Source of the DNA: an uncultured Pelagibacteraceae bacterium
GTDB taxonomy: Bacteria > Pseudomonadota > Alphaproteobacteria > Pelagibacterales > Pelagibacteraceae
NCBI GenBank assembly: GCA_902606665.1
Contig: CACLHE010000004.1
Location: 1 to 35,735 of the forward strand
DNA: 35,735 bases
Direction of reading: 5' to 3'
Part shown: positions 23,071-33,184 of the stretch, one piece after another
How positions within the stretch are numbered: the stretch's first letter is position 1
Layout of the letters: every line of letters starts with the position of its first letter
The notes under the pieces: model-generated
Seen by the model: only the letters and a program-made list of their open reading frames with translations
What the model was told of the DNA's origin: nothing
Databases searched by the model: none
Translations under genes and position numbers: made by a program

Positions 23071-24114
23071 TTAAGAATTCATTATGGAAGATGCGAAATT
23101 CCAACGACAATCAAAGCTTGGTATTACTACCTCGTCTAATTTAGCGTTTCCAAAATTGTCTGAAAGGACTTTTAACCAATTATTAACTTGCTTAGGTTTT
23201 TTTGAAAGAGTTCCTACTTGAGCAGTTATTACACCACCTGGTTTAAGTATTCGTTTTAAACCTTTCATATTTTTTGCTGCTAGATCTATACAAAACTGGT
23301 CATCATTAAGATCCACAAAAATTTTATCATATTTCGAATCTTTAACTTTTTTAATACTTTCAAAAGCATCGCCCCAAAAAGTTTTTACATTATTATTTGC
23401 TTTTACGTCTCCACATATTTTTGTGAGGTGTTTTTGACAAACTTTCACAACTTCAGGATCTAGTTCATACCAATCAATCAGATCAAATCCTTTCGATAAA
23501 CATTCTCTTGCGACTCCTCCATCTCCACCACCAATTATCGCTGCACTTGAATTTTCCTTAGATAAACTAAGTGCTGAATTCACAAACTGACCGCTATATT
23601 TTTTTTCATCTTTTTCTGCAACCTGTAATTCACTGTCTATGAATAGAGCGTTACCAAATTCTTCAAGTTTCATTATTTCAACATGCTGTCCCACTTTTGA
23701 TACAAAATTTTCTAATACATCATTAACTATATAATATTTTTGATGACCTGGAGTGCTATATAAGTCTTCGTATATGCCTTTATTACTTCTATCAAAATTT
23801 CTAACTACTGCTCTTTCGTGCTTAATTTCACTTTTTAAAATATCTAAAGCTGATGTTGGTGAAATTTTTGCACAAGTAAAAAAATCAAAACTTATTATTC
23901 CTCTTTCTGGAAAAGTATGAAAGCTCATGTGACTTTCTGCTAAAAGCGCAAGACATGTATATCCTTGTGGTTTAAATACTTTCTCAGCTATATTAAGAAC
24001 TTCTACCTTAGCTTTTTTAGCTATTTTGTAGATAACTTTAGTGTAAAATTCAGGTGAATAATCACGTTTTACGCCTAAAAAATCTATTGTTACGTGTTCT
24101 CCAACTTTTTTCAT
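23071..24114 (-). CDS. Fused S-adenosylmethionine decarboxylase - spermidine synthase-like aminopropyltransferase
   Basis: N-terminal prokaryotic AdoMetDC: ESHMSFHTFPERGIISFDFFTCA (pyruvoyl-Ser, catalytic His and Cys). C-terminal aminopropyltransferase fold: AAIIGGGDGGVARECL and DKIFVDLND. One 347-aa ORF. Confidence 0.92.
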   Translation of the reverse strand: MKKVGEHVTIDFLGVKRDYSPEFYTKVIYKIAKKAKVEVLNIAEKVFKPQGYTCLALLAESHMSFHTFPERGIISFDFFTCAKISPTSALDILKSEIKHERAVVRNFDRSNKGIYEDLYSTPGHQKYYIVNDVLENFVSKVGQHVEIMKLEEFGNALFIDSELQVAEKDEKKYSGQFVNSALSLSKENSSAAIIGGGDGGVARECLSKGFDLIDWYELDPEVVKVCQKHLTKICGDVKANNNVKTFWGDAFESIKKVKDSKYDKIFVDLNDDQFCIDLAAKNMKGLKRILKPGGVITAQVGTLSKKPKQVNNWLKVLSDNFGNAKLDEVVIPSFDCRWNFASSIMNS

Positions 24115-24202: not shown

Positions 24203-26236
24203 TTGAAAAATAGCTGGTCAAAAAAAATTGTAAAAAAATATATAAAAAGGTACGAAAAACTTGGCTTTTCAGCTGATTTAGCGCTTAGAGTCTACACGAC
24301 TCGCCTTCTTGGAAGAAATAAAGAATTAGTTTTGCATGGAGGAGGAAATACTTCTGTTAAAACTACGACTCAGGACATTGATGGAAAAAAATACAAAGTC
24401 TTATGTGTAAAAGGCAGTGGATGGGATATGGCAGATATAGAGCCTGCTGGACTTCCTGCAGTTAAACTAGAACCATTAATAGCTCTAAAAAATAAAAAAT
24501 ACTTATCTGATGAAGATATGGTTGCTTACCAGAAAAAAAATTTAATCGACATCAAATCACCCAATCCTTCAGTGGAAACATTCCTGCATGCTTTCTTGCC
24601 ATTTAAATATGTGGATCATACTCATGCGGATGCTGTATTAAATATAACTAATAGACCTGGTGGACTAAATTTATGTAAAAAAATATTTGGTGATAAAGTC
24701 AGTGTAGTTCCATATGTGATGCCAGGATTTATGTTGGCCAAAAAAATACATGAGATTTATTCAAAAAATCCAAAAATCAATTGCTTGATATTAATGAATC
24801 ATGGAATTTTCACTTTCGCTAATGATTGTAAAGAGGCTTATGACTTAATGATAAAATATGTATCCAAAGCTGAACAAGCAATAAGAAAATTAAAAAGTAA
24901 AAAAATTAAACAAATTAAAAAATTTCCTATTAAATTTAGCGTACATGAAGTTGCTCCAATAATAAGAGGTCTTCTATCTGAAAATAAAGATCAAAAATTT
25001 GTTGTTAATTACAGATTAAATAAACACTTAAAATATTTTATCAATGGAAAAAATGTTAGATCCTATTCTTCTAAAGGAACAGCAACTCCAGATCATGTGA
25101 TTAGAGTCAAGCCTTTTCCGTTAGTAATAACTCCAAAGAAAAATTCATCTATTGAGGATTTTAAAACAACAGCAAAAAAAGCTTTTGAAAAATATCGAAA
25201 AAAATATATTCGCTATTTCAATGTTAATAAGAAAAAAGTAAAAGAAAAAAAAGTAATGCTTGATACAGCCCCAAGAGTAATCTTAGTTCAAAATGTAGGA
25301 ATGTTTAGCGTTGGTAAAGATTTAAATGCAGCAAAAATAGCAGGAGATTTAACAGAAACTAATGCTAAAGTTATTGGTTCGGTTGAGGAAACTTCTACTT
25401 ATAAATTTATTCCTGAAAAAGACTTGTTTGATGTTGAATATTGGTCTTTAGAACAAGCAAAAATTAAAAAAAAGAAAAAATTACTTGAAGGAAATGTTGC
25501 TGTCGTTACTGGAAGTACTGGAACTATAGGATTTGAAACTTATAAAATGTTTAAAAATTATGGAGCTGAGGTTGTTTTGCTTGATAACAATTTAGAACGT
25601 TTAAAAGAAGTTCAATCTAAAATTAAGGATCTTTGTATACATTGTGATGTCACAAATAAAAAAAGTGTAAAGAATGCATTTAAACAAATTTGTGAAAAAT
25701 TTGGAGGTATTGATATTTTAGTTTCAAATGCTGGAGCCGCGCCTGGAGGTTCGATAGGTGAAGTAAGTGATGAAGTATTAAGGAAAAGTTTTGAAATTAA
25801 TTTTTTTGCTCATCAAAACTGCGCTGCTGAAGCAACTAAAATAATGATGAAACAGAATATTAATGGTTGCCTTCTTTTTAATATTTCAAAACAATCGGTA
25901 AATCCTGGAAAAAATTTTGGTCCTTATGGGTTACCTAAATCTGCTTTGTTGAGTTTATGCAAACAGTACGCTGTGGATTATGGTTCTTACGGAATTAGAT
26001 CTAATGGTGTAAATGCAGATAGAATTAGAAGTGGTTTAATGACCGACAAAATGATTAAAACTAGAGCCAAAGCAAGATCAGTTACTACTGATGATTATAT
26101 GAAAGGTAATTTATTATTAAATGAAGTTAAAGCAGAAGATGTGGCTAAAGCATTTTTTCATTTGGCTGTTTCAAAAAAAACTACAGGTGCTGTTCTTACG
26201 GTTGACGGGGGAAACATAGCTGCATCATTAAGATAA
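24203..26236 (+). CDS. Bifunctional class II aldolase / short-chain dehydrogenase (RhaD/RhaEW-like fusion)
   Basis: N-terminal aldolase: VLHGGGNTSVK, VDHTHADAVL, LMNHGIFTFA. C-terminal SDR: VVTGSTGTIGFETYKMF, VSNAGAAPGG, NISKQSVNPGKNFGPYGLPKSALL (YxxxK), VDGGNIAASLR. Confidence 0.92.
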   Translation: MKNSWSKKIVKKYIKRYEKLGFSADLALRVYTTRLLGRNKELVLHGGGNTSVKTTTQDIDGKKYKVLCVKGSGWDMADIEPAGLPAVKLEPLIALKNKKYLSDEDMVAYQKKNLIDIKSPNPSVETFLHAFLPFKYVDHTHADAVLNITNRPGGLNLCKKIFGDKVSVVPYVMPGFMLAKKIHEIYSKNPKINCLILMNHGIFTFANDCKEAYDLMIKYVSKAEQAIRKLKSKKIKQIKKFPIKFSVHEVAPIIRGLLSENKDQKFVVNYRLNKHLKYFINGKNVRSYSSKGTATPDHVIRVKPFPLVITPKKNSSIEDFKTTAKKAFEKYRKKYIRYFNVNKKKVKEKKVMLDTAPRVILVQNVGMFSVGKDLNAAKIAGDLTETNAKVIGSVEETSTYKFIPEKDLFDVEYWSLEQAKIKKKKKLLEGNVAVVTGSTGTIGFETYKMFKNYGAEVVLLDNNLERLKEVQSKIKDLCIHCDVTNKKSVKNAFKQICEKFGGIDILVSNAGAAPGGSIGEVSDEVLRKSFEINFFAHQNCAAEATKIMMKQNINGCLLFNISKQSVNPGKNFGPYGLPKSALLSLCKQYAVDYGSYGIRSNGVNADRIRSGLMTDKMIKTRAKARSVTTDDYMKGNLLLNEVKAEDVAKAFFHLAVSKKTTGAVLTVDGGNIAASLR

Positions 26237-26445: not shown

Positions 26446-26784
26446 TTAATTATTAGTCTTACCAATCAAATTAACCATTAATACACCTATAATAATAAAA
26501 GCTAATCCGATATTTGTATAAAGATTAGGTGTCTGATTGAATTTAAAAACTCCAACTAACACCGTTGCGATAATACAAAGTCCTGCAAATGAAGCATAGG
26601 TTATACCAACAGGAATAACTTTCATTACAAGTGATAATGTAAACATACATAAAACAATTGTAATTGCTGTGATAATACTCGGAATCAATACTGTAAATCC
26701 TTGAGCGCTCTTTGCAAAACCATTAGCTGCTGTTCCTAAAGCAACTGCAATAATTAAAATTACGTAAGCTGAAATATTGCTCAT
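26446..26784 (-). CDS. Small multidrug resistance (SMR)-family-like 4-TM transporter, apparently lacking the TM1 Glu
   Basis: 112 aa, four TM segments; SAQGFTVLIPSIITA and SLVMKVIPVGITYASFAGLCII resemble SMR SEGFTRLWPS and IPVGIAYAIWSG. Confidence 0.8.
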   Translation of the reverse strand: MSNISAYVILIIAVALGTAANGFAKSAQGFTVLIPSIITAITIVLCMFTLSLVMKVIPVGITYASFAGLCIIATVLVGVFKFNQTPNLYTNIGLAFIIIGVLMVNLIGKTNN

Positions 26785-27857
26785 TTAAATAATTTTTTTA
26801 ATCCTTCTTTAGACGCTTCACAAATACCTTTTTCGGTTATTAATCCTGTAACATATTTAGCGGGAGTAACGTCAAAAGCTAAGTTCATTGTTTTGCTTTT
26901 TTTAGGATAAATTCTTACTTTTTTTACTTTATTACTCTCATCCAATCCTTCTATATGAGACAGTTCTTCGGAATTTCTTTCTTCAATTGGAATATCTTTA
27001 AAGTTTTCTATATTCCAGTCAATTGTTGAGCTAGGTAAAGCAACATAGAAAGGAACATTATTATCTTTAGCTGCCAAGGCTTTTAAATAAGTACCAATTT
27101 TATTACAAACATCTCCAGTTGATAGAGTTCTATCAGTTCCAACGATACACATGTCTACCTCGCCTCTTTGCATTAATATTCCACCCGTATTATCTGCAAT
27201 AATTGTATTAGGAATTTTTTCTTCATTTAATTCGTATGACGTTAAATTAGCTCCTTGATTTCTTGGTCTTGTTTCATCAACCCAAACATGAACTGGAATC
27301 CCTTTTTTATGTGCATGATAAATTGGAGATGTTGCTGTTCCCCAATTTATTGTTGCAAGCCAACCAGCATTACAATGGGTTAATATGTTTACTTTATCTT
27401 TCTTTTTATTATAAATTTCTTCAATAATTTTTAATCCGTTTAATCCTATATTTTCACAAAATTTAACATCTTCTTCGCAAATTGCTTTTGCTTCGTCTAA
27501 AGCTACTTTTAGCAATTCATTATTATTAACCTCTGATAATTTCTTCATCATACGATCAACTGCCCACTTTAGATTGATTGCCGTTGGTCTTGATTGAATT
27601 AGCTCCTCTGCACTTTTCTTTATAAAGTTAGGATCGTTTTTTTCCATAATAGCTAAAACAATACCGTAGGCTGCAGTTCCACCTATTAATGGAGCCCCTC
27701 TAACCTCCATAACTTTTATTGCATTAATCGCATCTTTTACTGTTTTAAGATCTTTAATTATAAATTGATGGGGTAGTTTTGTTTGATCAATAATTTTAAC
27801 TGTTTGACTTTTCTCATCAAACCAAATTGTACGATATTCTTTTCCTTCTATTTTCAT
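26781..27857 (-). CDS. mtnA: S-methyl-5-thioribose-1-phosphate isomerase
   Basis: MEVRGAPLIGGTAAYG, ILTHCNAGWLAT (catalytic Cys), DETRPRNQGANLTSYEL, VGTDRTLSTGDVCNKIGTYLKALAA. Confidence 0.94.
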   Translation of the reverse strand: MKIEGKEYRTIWFDEKSQTVKIIDQTKLPHQFIIKDLKTVKDAINAIKVMEVRGAPLIGGTAAYGIVLAIMEKNDPNFIKKSAEELIQSRPTAINLKWAVDRMMKKLSEVNNNELLKVALDEAKAICEEDVKFCENIGLNGLKIIEEIYNKKKDKVNILTHCNAGWLATINWGTATSPIYHAHKKGIPVHVWVDETRPRNQGANLTSYELNEEKIPNTIIADNTGGILMQRGEVDMCIVGTDRTLSTGDVCNKIGTYLKALAAKDNNVPFYVALPSSTIDWNIENFKDIPIEERNSEELSHIEGLDESNKVKKVRIYPKKSKTMNLAFDVTPAKYVTGLITEKGICEASKEGLKKLFK

Positions 27858-28726
27858 TTATTTAGAACTCTTCCAGCTACTGTTTTTAATTTTTTAATTG
27901 TTTTTTTAGTTCTTTTTTCTGGAGCTGTAATAATTGCTACATCTAAACAATTATTTGTTGGATCTTTTGGATCTATATGGTTTTCGAAATTTTCTATAAT
28001 ATTTTTTACCATATTTTTTGCTTTAGCTGCGTTACCTAATAAAACTTTAATCACTGTCTGAACATCAACATTTTCATGATCAGGATGCCAGCAATCATAA
28101 TCGGTAACCATAGATACTGACGCATATCTAATTTCTGCTTCTCTTGCTAATTTTGCTTCAGGCATATTTGTCATTCCAATAACATCTGCTTTCCAAGATC
28201 TATATAAATTAGATTCGGCTAATGTTGAAAATTGAGGGCCTTCCATGACAACATAAGTTCCTCCTCTTTGGTAATCTATTTTTTCTTTTTTTATAGCTTC
28301 TTCGCAAGCATTCATTAAACCATTGGATGTCGGGTGAGCCATCGAAACATGAGCTACTATATCTTCGTCAAAAAAAGTTTTCTTTCTCGCAAAAGTCCTA
28401 TCTATAAATTGATCAACTATTACAAATTTTCCTGGTGGCAAATCTTCTTTTAATGAACCTACAGCAGATACCGAAACAATATCGGTTACACCTAATTGTT
28501 TTAAAGCATCTATGTTAGCTCTGAAATTTATATTTGATGGTGAAATTTTGTGACCTCTTGCATGACGAGGTAAAAAACAAACTTCTTTTCCTTTATATTT
28601 TAAATTTAATATTTGATCGGAGGGTTTTCCCCATGGAGTTGATATAGATTTCCATTTTGGATTTTGCATCCCCTCTATATCATAAAGCCCACTCCCACCT
28701 ATTATTGCAAGTTTGTTTTTTGTCAT
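27854..28726 (-). CDS. mtnP: 5'-methylthioadenosine phosphorylase
   Basis: IIGGSGLYDIEG, LPRHARGHKISPSNINFRANI, SAVGSL, VVMEGPQFSTLAES, IGMTNMPEAKLAREAEI, DYDCWH. Confidence 0.94.
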   Translation of the reverse strand: MTKNKLAIIGGSGLYDIEGMQNPKWKSISTPWGKPSDQILNLKYKGKEVCFLPRHARGHKISPSNINFRANIDALKQLGVTDIVSVSAVGSLKEDLPPGKFVIVDQFIDRTFARKKTFFDEDIVAHVSMAHPTSNGLMNACEEAIKKEKIDYQRGGTYVVMEGPQFSTLAESNLYRSWKADVIGMTNMPEAKLAREAEIRYASVSMVTDYDCWHPDHENVDVQTVIKVLLGNAAKAKNMVKNIIENFENHIDPKDPTNNCLDVAIITAPEKRTKKTIKKLKTVAGRVLNK

Positions 28727-28774
28727 AAATTAATATAATTAATATGATCTTTTTTATTAACTTTGAAGAAAAAA

Positions 28775-29302
28775 ATGGATTTAAAAAAATACATAAGAAG
28801 TATTCAAGATTACCCTAAAAAGGGGATTTTGTTCAGAGATATTACAACCTTAATTAAAGATAAAGATGCATTCAAAGATTGTATAGACCAGATGTCTAAA
28901 ATATTAGTGAAATTAAATTTCGATAAAATTGCTTCTATAGAATCAAGAGGTTTTGTTTTTGCTGCACCGCTTTGCTACAACTTATCAAAATCATTAATTT
29001 TGATGAGAAAAAAAGATAAATTACCTGCTGAAAAATATTCTCAAGAATTTAAGCTTGAGTATGGGCAGGCAACATTAGAAATACACAAAGATTCTATTAA
29101 ACCTAAGGAAAAAGTATTAATAATTGACGACTTAATAGCTACGGGCGGAACTGCTGAAGCTGGAGCTAAATTAGTTGAGCAATCTGGCGGAATAGTCTCT
29201 GGATTCATATTTGTGATTAATCTTTTTGATTTAGGTGGAAAAAAACTACTGGAAAGTAAAGGATATAAAACTTTTAGTCTAATTGATTTTCCTGGTCATT
29301 AA
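28775..29302 (+). CDS. apt: Adenine phosphoribosyltransferase
   Basis: DLKKYIRSIQDYPKKGILFRDITTLIKD, ESRGFVFAAPL, VLIIDDLIATGGTAEAGAKLVE. The track's TTG start at 28763 is less likely than the ATG at 28775. Confidence 0.94.
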   Translation: MDLKKYIRSIQDYPKKGILFRDITTLIKDKDAFKDCIDQMSKILVKLNFDKIASIESRGFVFAAPLCYNLSKSLILMRKKDKLPAEKYSQEFKLEYGQATLEIHKDSIKPKEKVLIIDDLIATGGTAEAGAKLVEQSGGIVSGFIFVINLFDLGGKKLLESKGYKTFSLIDFPGH

Positions 29303-31277: not shown

Positions 31278-32312
31278 ATGAAAAAATTTGTTGTAACGGG
31301 TGGTTCTGGATTTATAGGAAGCAACTTAGTAAAGTTTTTACTTAAAAAAAATTATTTTGTTATTAATATTGATAAATTAAGTTATTCAGCAAATCCCTAT
31401 AATTTAAAAGAGGTAAGAAAAAATAGAAAATATAGATTTTTTAAACAAGATATTAATAATCAAAAACAAATATACAGTATATTAAATAGATACAAACCTG
31501 ATTGTATTTTTAATCTAGCTGCAGAAACGCATGTTGACCGATCTATAGATAATCCTAAGAGTTTTATTAATAGTAACATTTTAGGTGTTTTTAATTTGCT
31601 TGAAGTTCTCAATAAATATTTAAAAAAAAATAAAAGAAAAAAATTAAAATTTATTCATATTTCTACAGATGAGGTATATGGAGATTTAAAAACAAATAAA
31701 AGATCAAACGAAGATTTTCCATACAATCCGAGCTCTCCTTATTCTTCGACAAAGGCAAGTGCGGATTTACTAATAAAATCTTTTGTAAGAACTTATAAAT
31801 TGCCTATTGTGATATCTAATTGTTGTAACAATTATGGTCCAAATCAATTTCCAGAAAAATTAATACCAAAGCTAATTTTTAATATTATTAATAAAAAACC
31901 ATTGCCAATATATGGAAAAGGTAAAAACTCAAGGGAATGGATATATGTAACTGATCATTGTGAAGCTCTATTGAAAATATTTTTTAGAGGAAAGATTGGT
32001 CAGAGCTATAATGTCGGATCGAATCAAAATATTAATAATCTTAGTTTAGCAAAAAAATTGCTCAGGATTGTAAAAAATGAAAACTATAAAATTAACAAAA
32101 AAGTTAAAATTTTATTTGTCAAGGACAGGCCTGGACATGATTTAAGATATGCTCTTAACAGTAACAAAATATATAAAAAATTAGGTTGGAAATCTAAAAT
32201 ATCAATAGATAAAGGATTGCTACAAACTTTCGAATGGTACTTAAAAAATAAATCTTTTTTTTATAGTGTTTCAAAAAACCTTCATATAAATAGATTGGGA
32301 TTAAAAAAATGA
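31278..32312 (+). CDS. rfbB: dTDP-glucose 4,6-dehydratase
   Basis: FVVTGGSGFIGSNLV, AAETHVDRSIDNPKSFI, ISTDEVYGDL, YSSTKASADLLIKSF, NCCNNYGPNQFPEKLIP. Confidence 0.93.
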   Translation: MKKFVVTGGSGFIGSNLVKFLLKKNYFVINIDKLSYSANPYNLKEVRKNRKYRFFKQDINNQKQIYSILNRYKPDCIFNLAAETHVDRSIDNPKSFINSNILGVFNLLEVLNKYLKKNKRKKLKFIHISTDEVYGDLKTNKRSNEDFPYNPSSPYSSTKASADLLIKSFVRTYKLPIVISNCCNNYGPNQFPEKLIPKLIFNIINKKPLPIYGKGKNSREWIYVTDHCEALLKIFFRGKIGQSYNVGSNQNINNLSLAKKLLRIVKNENYKINKKVKILFVKDRPGHDLRYALNSNKIYKKLGWKSKISIDKGLLQTFEWYLKNKSFFYSVSKNLHINRLGLKK

Positions 32313-33184
32313 TTAATAAAGGAATTATATTAGCAGGTGGTACTGGCACTCGCATGAGTCCTTTAACGAAAGCTGTTAATAAACAATTATTACCGATCTA
32401 TGATAAACCTTTAATATATTATCCTTTGTCGATATTAATGCTTTCAGGAATAAAAGATATCTTAATCATAGTGAATAAAGGTCAATTAAGTCAATTTAAA
32501 AAAATTTTACCAAATGGAAATAATTTAGGAATTAAAATTACTTATGTAGAACAAAAATATCCCAAAGGCTTACCAGATGCATTTATTCTTGGAAAAAAAT
32601 TTGTTGGAAAAAGTAATGTAGCTTTAATTTTAGGTGATAATTTTTTTTATGGACAAAGTCTAACTAAAAAATTAAAGGAATGTGTTAGACTTAATAAAGG
32701 TGCATCTGTTATTTTGCATCCGGTCAGTAATCCTTCTTCCTATGGAGTAGCAACCATTAACAAAAAAAACAAAATAACTAAAATAATAGAGAAACCAAAA
32801 AAATCATTTTCGAATTTAGCTGTTACAGGTCTTTACTTCTTTGATAATGATGTAATTAAATATAGTGAAAACTTAAAACCATCAAAAAGAAAAGAAATTG
32901 AAATAGTAGATCTATTAAATAAATATAGAAAAAAAAATAAATTATCAGCACATTTTCTTGGTAGAGGTGGAGCTTGGTTAGATACTGGTTCTATAAAAGA
33001 TTTTTATAGCACTTCAGCTTTTGTTTCTACATTAGAAAAAAGACAAGGCCTTAAAATAGCATGCTTAGAGGAAATAGCCTTAAACAACAAATGGATAAAT
33101 AAATATAATATTATGAATGCAATGAAATTTTATGGCAAATGCAGTTATTCGCAATACTTGTCAACTTTCATTAGAAGAAAATGA
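32309..33184 (+). CDS. rfbA: Glucose-1-phosphate thymidylyltransferase
   Basis: ILAGGTGTRMSPLTKAVNKQLLPIYDKPLIYYPLSILMLSGI, ILGDNFFYG, GLYFFDNDVI, GRGGAWLDTGS. Confidence 0.94.
   Translation: MINKGIILAGGTGTRMSPLTKAVNKQLLPIYDKPLIYYPLSILMLSGIKDILIIVNKGQLSQFKKILPNGNNLGIKITYVEQKYPKGLPDAFILGKKFVGKSNVALILGDNFFYGQSLTKKLKECVRLNKGASVILHPVSNPSSYGVATINKKNKITKIIEKPKKSFSNLAVTGLYFFDNDVIKYSENLKPSKRKEIEIVDLLNKYRKKNKLSAHFLGRGGAWLDTGSIKDFYSTSAFVSTLEKRQGLKIACLEEIALNNKWINKYNIMNAMKFYGKCSYSQYLSTFIRRK

Follow-up and report, generated by a model that had tools for sequence, protein, structure and literature searches.

A class II aldolase/short-chain dehydrogenase fusion linked to mtnA and mtnP is a probable MTA salvage enzyme in Pelagibacteraceae

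The window analyzed here is a stretch of 35,735 nucleotides (contig C4) from the genome of an uncultured Pelagibacteraceae bacterium. This genome is 752 kb in size, has low GC, and is 60% complete; single-cell genomes of Pelagibacteraceae (SAR11) are the closest relatives with names. Near an aldolase/SDR fusion gene, the window encodes genes that form, use, and recycle parts of MTA:

23071-24114, minus strand: speD-speE fusion (SAM decarboxylase-spermidine synthase), the MTA source (PF02675, PF01564, TIGR03330)
24203-26236, plus strand: aldolase/SDR fusion ORF, 677 aa (Pfam and NF006192)
24203-24907, plus strand: class II aldolase domain of the fusion, predicted active, residues 1-235 (Pfam, alignment, match to 3m4r)
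24908-25480, plus strand: middle domain of the fusion, predicted degenerate class II aldolase fold, residues 236-426 (AlphaFold and Foldseek)
25481-26233, plus strand: SDR domain of the fusion, residues 427-677 (Pfam, alignment, structure match)
26446-26784, minus strand: SMR-family small exporter (PF00893; no NCBIfam cut-off reached)
26781-27857, minus strand: mtnA, 5-methylthioribose-1-P isomerase (TIGR00512, 419 bits against a cut-off of 279)
27854-28726, minus strand: mtnP, MTA phosphorylase (TIGR01694, 318 bits against 275; NF006492, 464 against 437)
28763-29302, plus strand: apt, adenine phosphoribosyltransferase (TIGR01090, 206 bits against 186)

The speD-speE gene is divergent from the aldolase/SDR gene. 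The mtnP gene overlaps mtnA by 4 bp, mtnA overlaps the SMR gene by 4 bp, and the three seem to form a single operon on the strand opposite to the fusion. Many SAR11 relatives also have the SMR gene between mtnA and the fusion, in some cases with further ORFs inserted, and its product possibly exports a polyamine or the end product of the pathway. No RNA element or riboswitch scored above Rfam thresholds around the locus, and a promoter and terminator scan of the locus gave no signal above shuffles. When recurring neighbors were surveyed, with functions judged from sequence starts, no downstream enzyme for methylthioethanol or methylthioacetate was conserved among them; apart from mtnA, mtnP, and apt, the recurring neighbors were lineage-specific genes with other functions.

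The fusion is present in one copy in its own genome. It starts with TTG, as it does in most SAR11 relatives, and more distant homologues have ATG at the equivalent site. Pfam assigns residues 30-225 to Aldolase_II (E 4e-24) and residues 431-613 to adh_short (E 5.5e-35). The motifs named in the preliminary description were all found: HTHADAV (H139, H141), NHGIF (H200), TGSTGTIG (436-443), and YGLPK (Y575, K579). Alignment with FucA-type enzymes assigns H139, H141, and H200 as metal ligands, E125 as the catalytic residue, and GGGNTS and KGSG as phosphate-site motifs. The aldolase domain thus has the HxH, the distal His, and the acidic catalytic residue of a class II aldolase metal site, and these four residues are invariant in 50 of 50 aligned NF006192-type proteins, whether their genes are linked to mtn genes, to sn-glycerol-1-P dehydrogenase (G1PDH), or to neither. 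The three His ligands are also invariant in the aligned RhaEW proteins. The SDR domain has TGxxxGxG at 436-442 and the S562-Y575-K579 residues, and D461 follows its second strand, in agreement with an NAD type. Two copies of the fusion are disrupted by a frameshift or stop (L184 6001-8030; G357:C1:1268665-1270468), which could be assembly error or decay.

The AlphaFold model of the fusion is good (pLDDT 83.5, pTM 0.85). Within it, the N-terminal domain aligns with 3m4r (TMt 0.90) and the C-terminal domain with SDRs. The middle region (236-426) has a weak class II aldolase signal in sequence and lacks the metal His triad; folded alone, its best Foldseek match is the FucA structure 2opi (TM 0.58, E 1e-4). 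A TPDH motif is conserved in this domain. Because the middle region by itself resembles class II aldolases in the fold search, the protein is probably laid out as an active aldolase, a degenerate aldolase, and an SDR, and in this model the middle domain may take the place of a partner subunit. Internal duplication was not significant in a sequence-profile test, but the fold search does favor it.

Protein family models are useful for separating the fusion from rhamnose enzymes with similar domains. NF006192 (PRK08324.1-6, "bifunctional aldolase/short-chain dehydrogenase") is the best NCBIfam model, matching residues 1-677 with 888 bits against a cut-off of 639 bits, while the RhaD model TIGR02632 gives 468 bits, under its cut-off of 567.75. 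Because the first cut-off is passed and the second is not, the default name is neutral and does not indicate rhamnose. The preliminary description had stated that the gene is annotated by homology as rhamnose catabolism and that its default annotation was likely to mislead; NCBIfam cut-offs contradict the former, and the latter was mostly not borne out. A protein from the rha locus of Rhizobium johnstonii 3841 shows the opposite pattern on the two models. This protein and those from other alphaproteobacterial rha loci served as RhaEW comparators in place of B. subtilis YuxG and C. aurantiacus RhaEW. In a tree of 61 fusions and relatives, RhaEW proteins form one clade with support of 100, and the window protein lies outside it, among mtn-linked proteins. 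Trees built separately from the aldolase half and the SDR half both set RhaEW apart. The phylogenetic comparison proposed earlier, on whole proteins and on aldolase halves, therefore places the protein outside the RhaEW-type rhamnulose enzymes. At the position of the FucA catalytic Glu73, all 50 NF006192-type proteins have Glu (Glu125) and all eight RhaEW proteins have Asp. The two groups have 39 fixed or nearly fixed differences, several of which are within the SDR substrate loop.

Conservation of gene order in relatives is informative about the role of the fusion. The fusion ORF is present in 25 of 60 relatives, and in SAR11 it adjoins speDE and mtnA almost wherever contig extent allows. Six SAR11 genomes with mtnP and mtnA but without the fusion have a solo aldolase of 211-221 aa in the same slot, in the order mtnP-mtnA-aldolase-speDE (L031-L036). 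This solo aldolase is of FucA/DrdA type (PDB 1fua, E 1.6e-49; DrdA 6btd, E 8.8e-40), and it never co-occurs with the fusion in the relatives. Because the slot is identical, the solo enzyme probably performs the same cleavage as the fusion; no other single observation argues as strongly that the two share a reaction as this replacement of one aldolase by another in the operon. Two SAR11 genomes that are 99% complete (G026 and G033) have neither mtnP nor mtnA, and neither the fusion nor the solo aldolase. The distantly related genome G040 of family f2 (51% identity) has an apt-mtnP-mtnA-fusion run on one strand, and the other 23 genomes sampled from this family are without the fusion, mtnP, and mtnA. 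The run in G040 is followed by a weak agmatine-deiminase-like gene that scores below its cut-off (L037 10244-11383), a possible further link to polyamines. Universal methionine salvage in SAR11 was rejected because its dioxygenase ARD (PF03079) was found in 0 of 60 relatives.

Linkage between the fusion and mtn genes extends beyond SAR11. In a class-wide sample of 386 alphaproteobacterial genomes, 69 encode the fusion, defined as a score above the NF006192 cut-off. The mtnA gene is present in 65 of these 69 genomes versus 119 of the 317 genomes without the fusion (Fisher p 1.3e-19), and ARD is present in seven of the 69. Among the 51 fusions with a listed mtnA position, 27 are within 2 kb of mtnA, 26 of them on the same strand. 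Wider stretches add five fusions that adjoin mtnA and three that adjoin mtnP, so at least 35 of 69 fusions are adjacent to one of these genes. About one third of the fusions have no nearby mtn gene, and most such genomes have mtnA elsewhere. Context was also assigned by BLAST for 80 loci from GTDB genomes, which include Pelagibacteraceae, Rhodospirillales, Reyranella, Enhydrobacter, Ferrovibrio, Bradyrhizobium, and Gemmatimonadota; mtnA or mtnP is within 6 kb in 49 of these loci, and rhaI in none. Genome G406 carries mtnP-mtnA-fusion.

A minority of NF006192 proteins (L122, L123, L126), found in Rhizobium, Agrobacterium, and a small-genome alphaproteobacterium (G089), are encoded in a cluster with a sn-glycerol-1-P dehydrogenase-like (G1PDH) gene and an ABC sugar transporter, with no mtn gene. 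Because this minority exists, and because one of its members (L122) groups near SAR11 in the tree, on a long branch, the subfamily is not uniform in substrate and is hence an imperfect predictor. Two of these clusters (L123 and L126) also hold a HAD hydrolase and a glycerol-3-phosphate dehydrogenase, and the clusters look like a sugar pathway that has yet to be assigned. An unfused relative of 413 aa, with the aldolase and middle domains but no SDR, is encoded in the lsr autoinducer-2 uptake operon of Paracoccus aminophilus pAMI4 (L125 8001-9242), where it perhaps replaces an AI-2-phosphate processing enzyme.

After MtnA, the known routes are universal methionine salvage, the MTA-isoprenoid shunt, or an aldolase. 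The locus encodes mtnP, mtnA, and an aldolase together, the gene set of the DHAP shunt (in which mtnN/mtnK can replace mtnP), and the lack of ARD in the 60 relatives also accords with this shunt. Reading the sequences in this context, we consider it very probable that the fusion is the aldolase of this MTA salvage route and that its SDR converts the released aldehyde. The preliminary description had suggested that a RhaEW-like fusion was recruited to 5-methylthioribulose-1-P (MTRu-1-P), and genomic context, mtnA/mtnP linkage, solo-aldolase displacement, the separate clade, and the Glu/Asp difference strongly support that suggestion. The probable action of the SDR half on (methylthio)acetaldehyde, and apt and the SMR gene as neighbors, are additions to it. 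For the substrate, the coupling of the two activities, and the redox direction, we infer the following scheme. SpeD and SpeE would generate MTA, which MtnP would split into adenine, rescued by Apt, and 5-methylthioribose-1-P. MtnA would isomerize the latter to MTRu-1-P, and the N-terminal aldolase would cleave this to dihydroxyacetone phosphate and 2-(methylthio)acetaldehyde. If 5'-deoxyadenosine entered instead of MTA, the aldolase would cleave 5-deoxyribulose-1-P and release acetaldehyde. The fused NAD-dependent SDR would then immediately oxidize the aldehyde to (methylthio)acetate or reduce it to 2-(methylthio)ethanol, which would pull the unfavorable cleavage forward and keep the reactive aldehyde from escaping. 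The equilibrium of the aldol cleavage is against products, at about 1e-4 (PMC6079011), and a fused aldehyde-removing enzyme makes sense because the equilibrium lies so far toward the ketose phosphate.

Oxidation and reduction by the SDR appear about equally plausible, with oxidation slightly favored because of the RhaEW precedent and the predicted NAD preference. RhaEW is NAD+-dependent and inactive with NADH, and it yields neither DHAP nor lactate without NAD+ (PMC3870299). The known DHAP shunt reduces the aldehyde to 2-(methylthio)ethanol, and the enzyme named for this step in PMC5893883 is "a putative alcohol dehydrogenase"; the fused SDR is a candidate for the same step or for an oxidative alternative. 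Cleavage of MTRu-1-P followed by NAD-dependent oxidation to (methylthio)acetate might constitute an oxidative branch of the DHAP shunt in SAR11 and many Alphaproteobacteria, which we regard as a tentative proposal with somewhat less than an even chance. Such a branch, which would detoxify MTA and recover carbon, would differ from the reduction to 2-(methylthio)ethanol already described. Among the papers that a literature search covered, none mentioned the fusion in MTA metabolism, and an earlier mention elsewhere is possible.

Some observations count against a role in MTA salvage. In the window, the fusion is transcribed from the strand opposite to mtnP-mtnA. In addition, MTRu-1-P needs FucA-type (3R,4R) stereochemistry, and RhaEW cleaves the 4S epimer. 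DrdA has 3R,4R stereochemistry, as inferred in PMC6079011. Alternatively, the main substrate of the aldolase could be 5-deoxyribulose-1-P, derived from the 5'-deoxyadenosine that radical SAM enzymes release; the SDR would then act on acetaldehyde, and MTA would be a side or equal substrate. MtnP, MtnA, and Ald2 of the DHAP shunt accept both substrates, and DrdA prefers acetaldehyde (PMC10986504, PMC6079011). However, the MTA producer speD-speE adjoins the gene in nearly all SAR11 loci, and no radical SAM gene was noted at those loci, so we consider this as the main role unlikely; the two roles are compatible with each other. Another ketose phosphate, derived from imported sugars, would make the proximity of mtn genes a matter of chance. 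The minority G1PDH/ABC context in Rhizobium, Agrobacterium, and G089 is in line with such a substrate, but the mtnA/mtnP linkage seen in dozens of genomes from different alphaproteobacterial families, together with solo-aldolase displacement, is far beyond chance, and no sugar transporter was seen adjoining the gene in the window. This explanation is accordingly very improbable.

Least probable of all, to a degree that leaves it almost no weight, is a conventional role in L-rhamnose catabolism, with the protein acting as a rhamnulose-1-phosphate aldolase/lactaldehyde dehydrogenase (RhaEW). Its domain order is identical to that of RhaEW, at 30-33% identity, and it scores 468 bits to TIGR02632, under the cut-off. 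Gene content points the other way. As the preliminary description had stated, there are no rhamnose genes nearby: no rhamnose-catabolism gene occurs among the window ORFs scanned, and the rhamnose isomerase model TIGR02629 (rhaI) has no match in the 60%-complete genome. The same search found rhaI in 0 of the 69 genomes with an NF006192 fusion, yet each of the 11 RhaEW-type fusions in the same 386 genomes has rhaI within 6 kb, and nine of them adjoin it directly. The separate RhaEW clade, and Glu in place of the RhaEW-specific catalytic Asp among the 39 differences, also argue against this role. The model cut-off, the tree, and the linkage to rhaI led us to reject a function in rhamnose catabolism. 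At 31278-33184 (plus strand), 5 kb from the fusion, are rmlB, which passes its NCBIfam cut-off, and an rmlA-like gene that narrowly misses its own; these are genes of dTDP-deoxysugar synthesis for the cell surface and give no support for rhamnose catabolism.

SAR11 bacteria require reduced sulfur (PMC8437039), and MTA is released by Prochlorococcus (PMC11698098); therefore, the way SAR11 handles MTA matters for how carbon and sulfur are exchanged in the surface ocean. If the fusion does function in MTA salvage, it would supply an enzyme for the DHAP-shunt step at (methylthio)acetaldehyde, for which only a putative enzyme has been described (PMC5893883). This single candidate for the step occurs in 69 of the 386 alphaproteobacterial genomes sampled, and many SAR11 cells have it too. 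An NCBIfam family named only by its domains would also gain a function, cleanly apart from RhaEW.

Several known systems are close to the fusion. RhaEW/YuxG (TIGR02632; PMC3870299) shares with it the aldolase-middle-SDR order, the metal His triad, the SDR S-Y-K residues, and the Asp for NAD, and it carries out two consecutive reactions on one chain, as is proposed for the fusion. It differs in sequence (about 30-33% identity), in clade, in having Asp rather than Glu at the catalytic position, in the SDR substrate loop (SKN..AASPNASAY in RhaEW versus SKQAVNPGPDFGPY in the fusion), and in gene linkage, which is with rhaI/rhaK/rhaS for RhaEW and with mtnA/mtnP for the fusion. Ald2 (EC 4.1.2.62; R. 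palustris RPA4655) and DrdA have the proposed reaction, upstream MtnP and MtnA, and a catalytic Glu as in the fusion. They are set apart by their description as solo class II aldolases: enzymes of this FucA type have about 215 aa and no SDR, and DrdA is FucA-like with about 220 aa, whereas the fusion has 677 aa, belongs to another class II aldolase subfamily, and carries an SDR. The solo FucA-type aldolase of SAR11 shares the slot of the fusion but has no SDR and only about 24% identity, in an end-to-end alignment. The solved structure closest to the aldolase half is 3m4r, from Thermoplasma acidophilum (43% identity), a PDB entry that gives no function and covers only the N-terminal aldolase domain.
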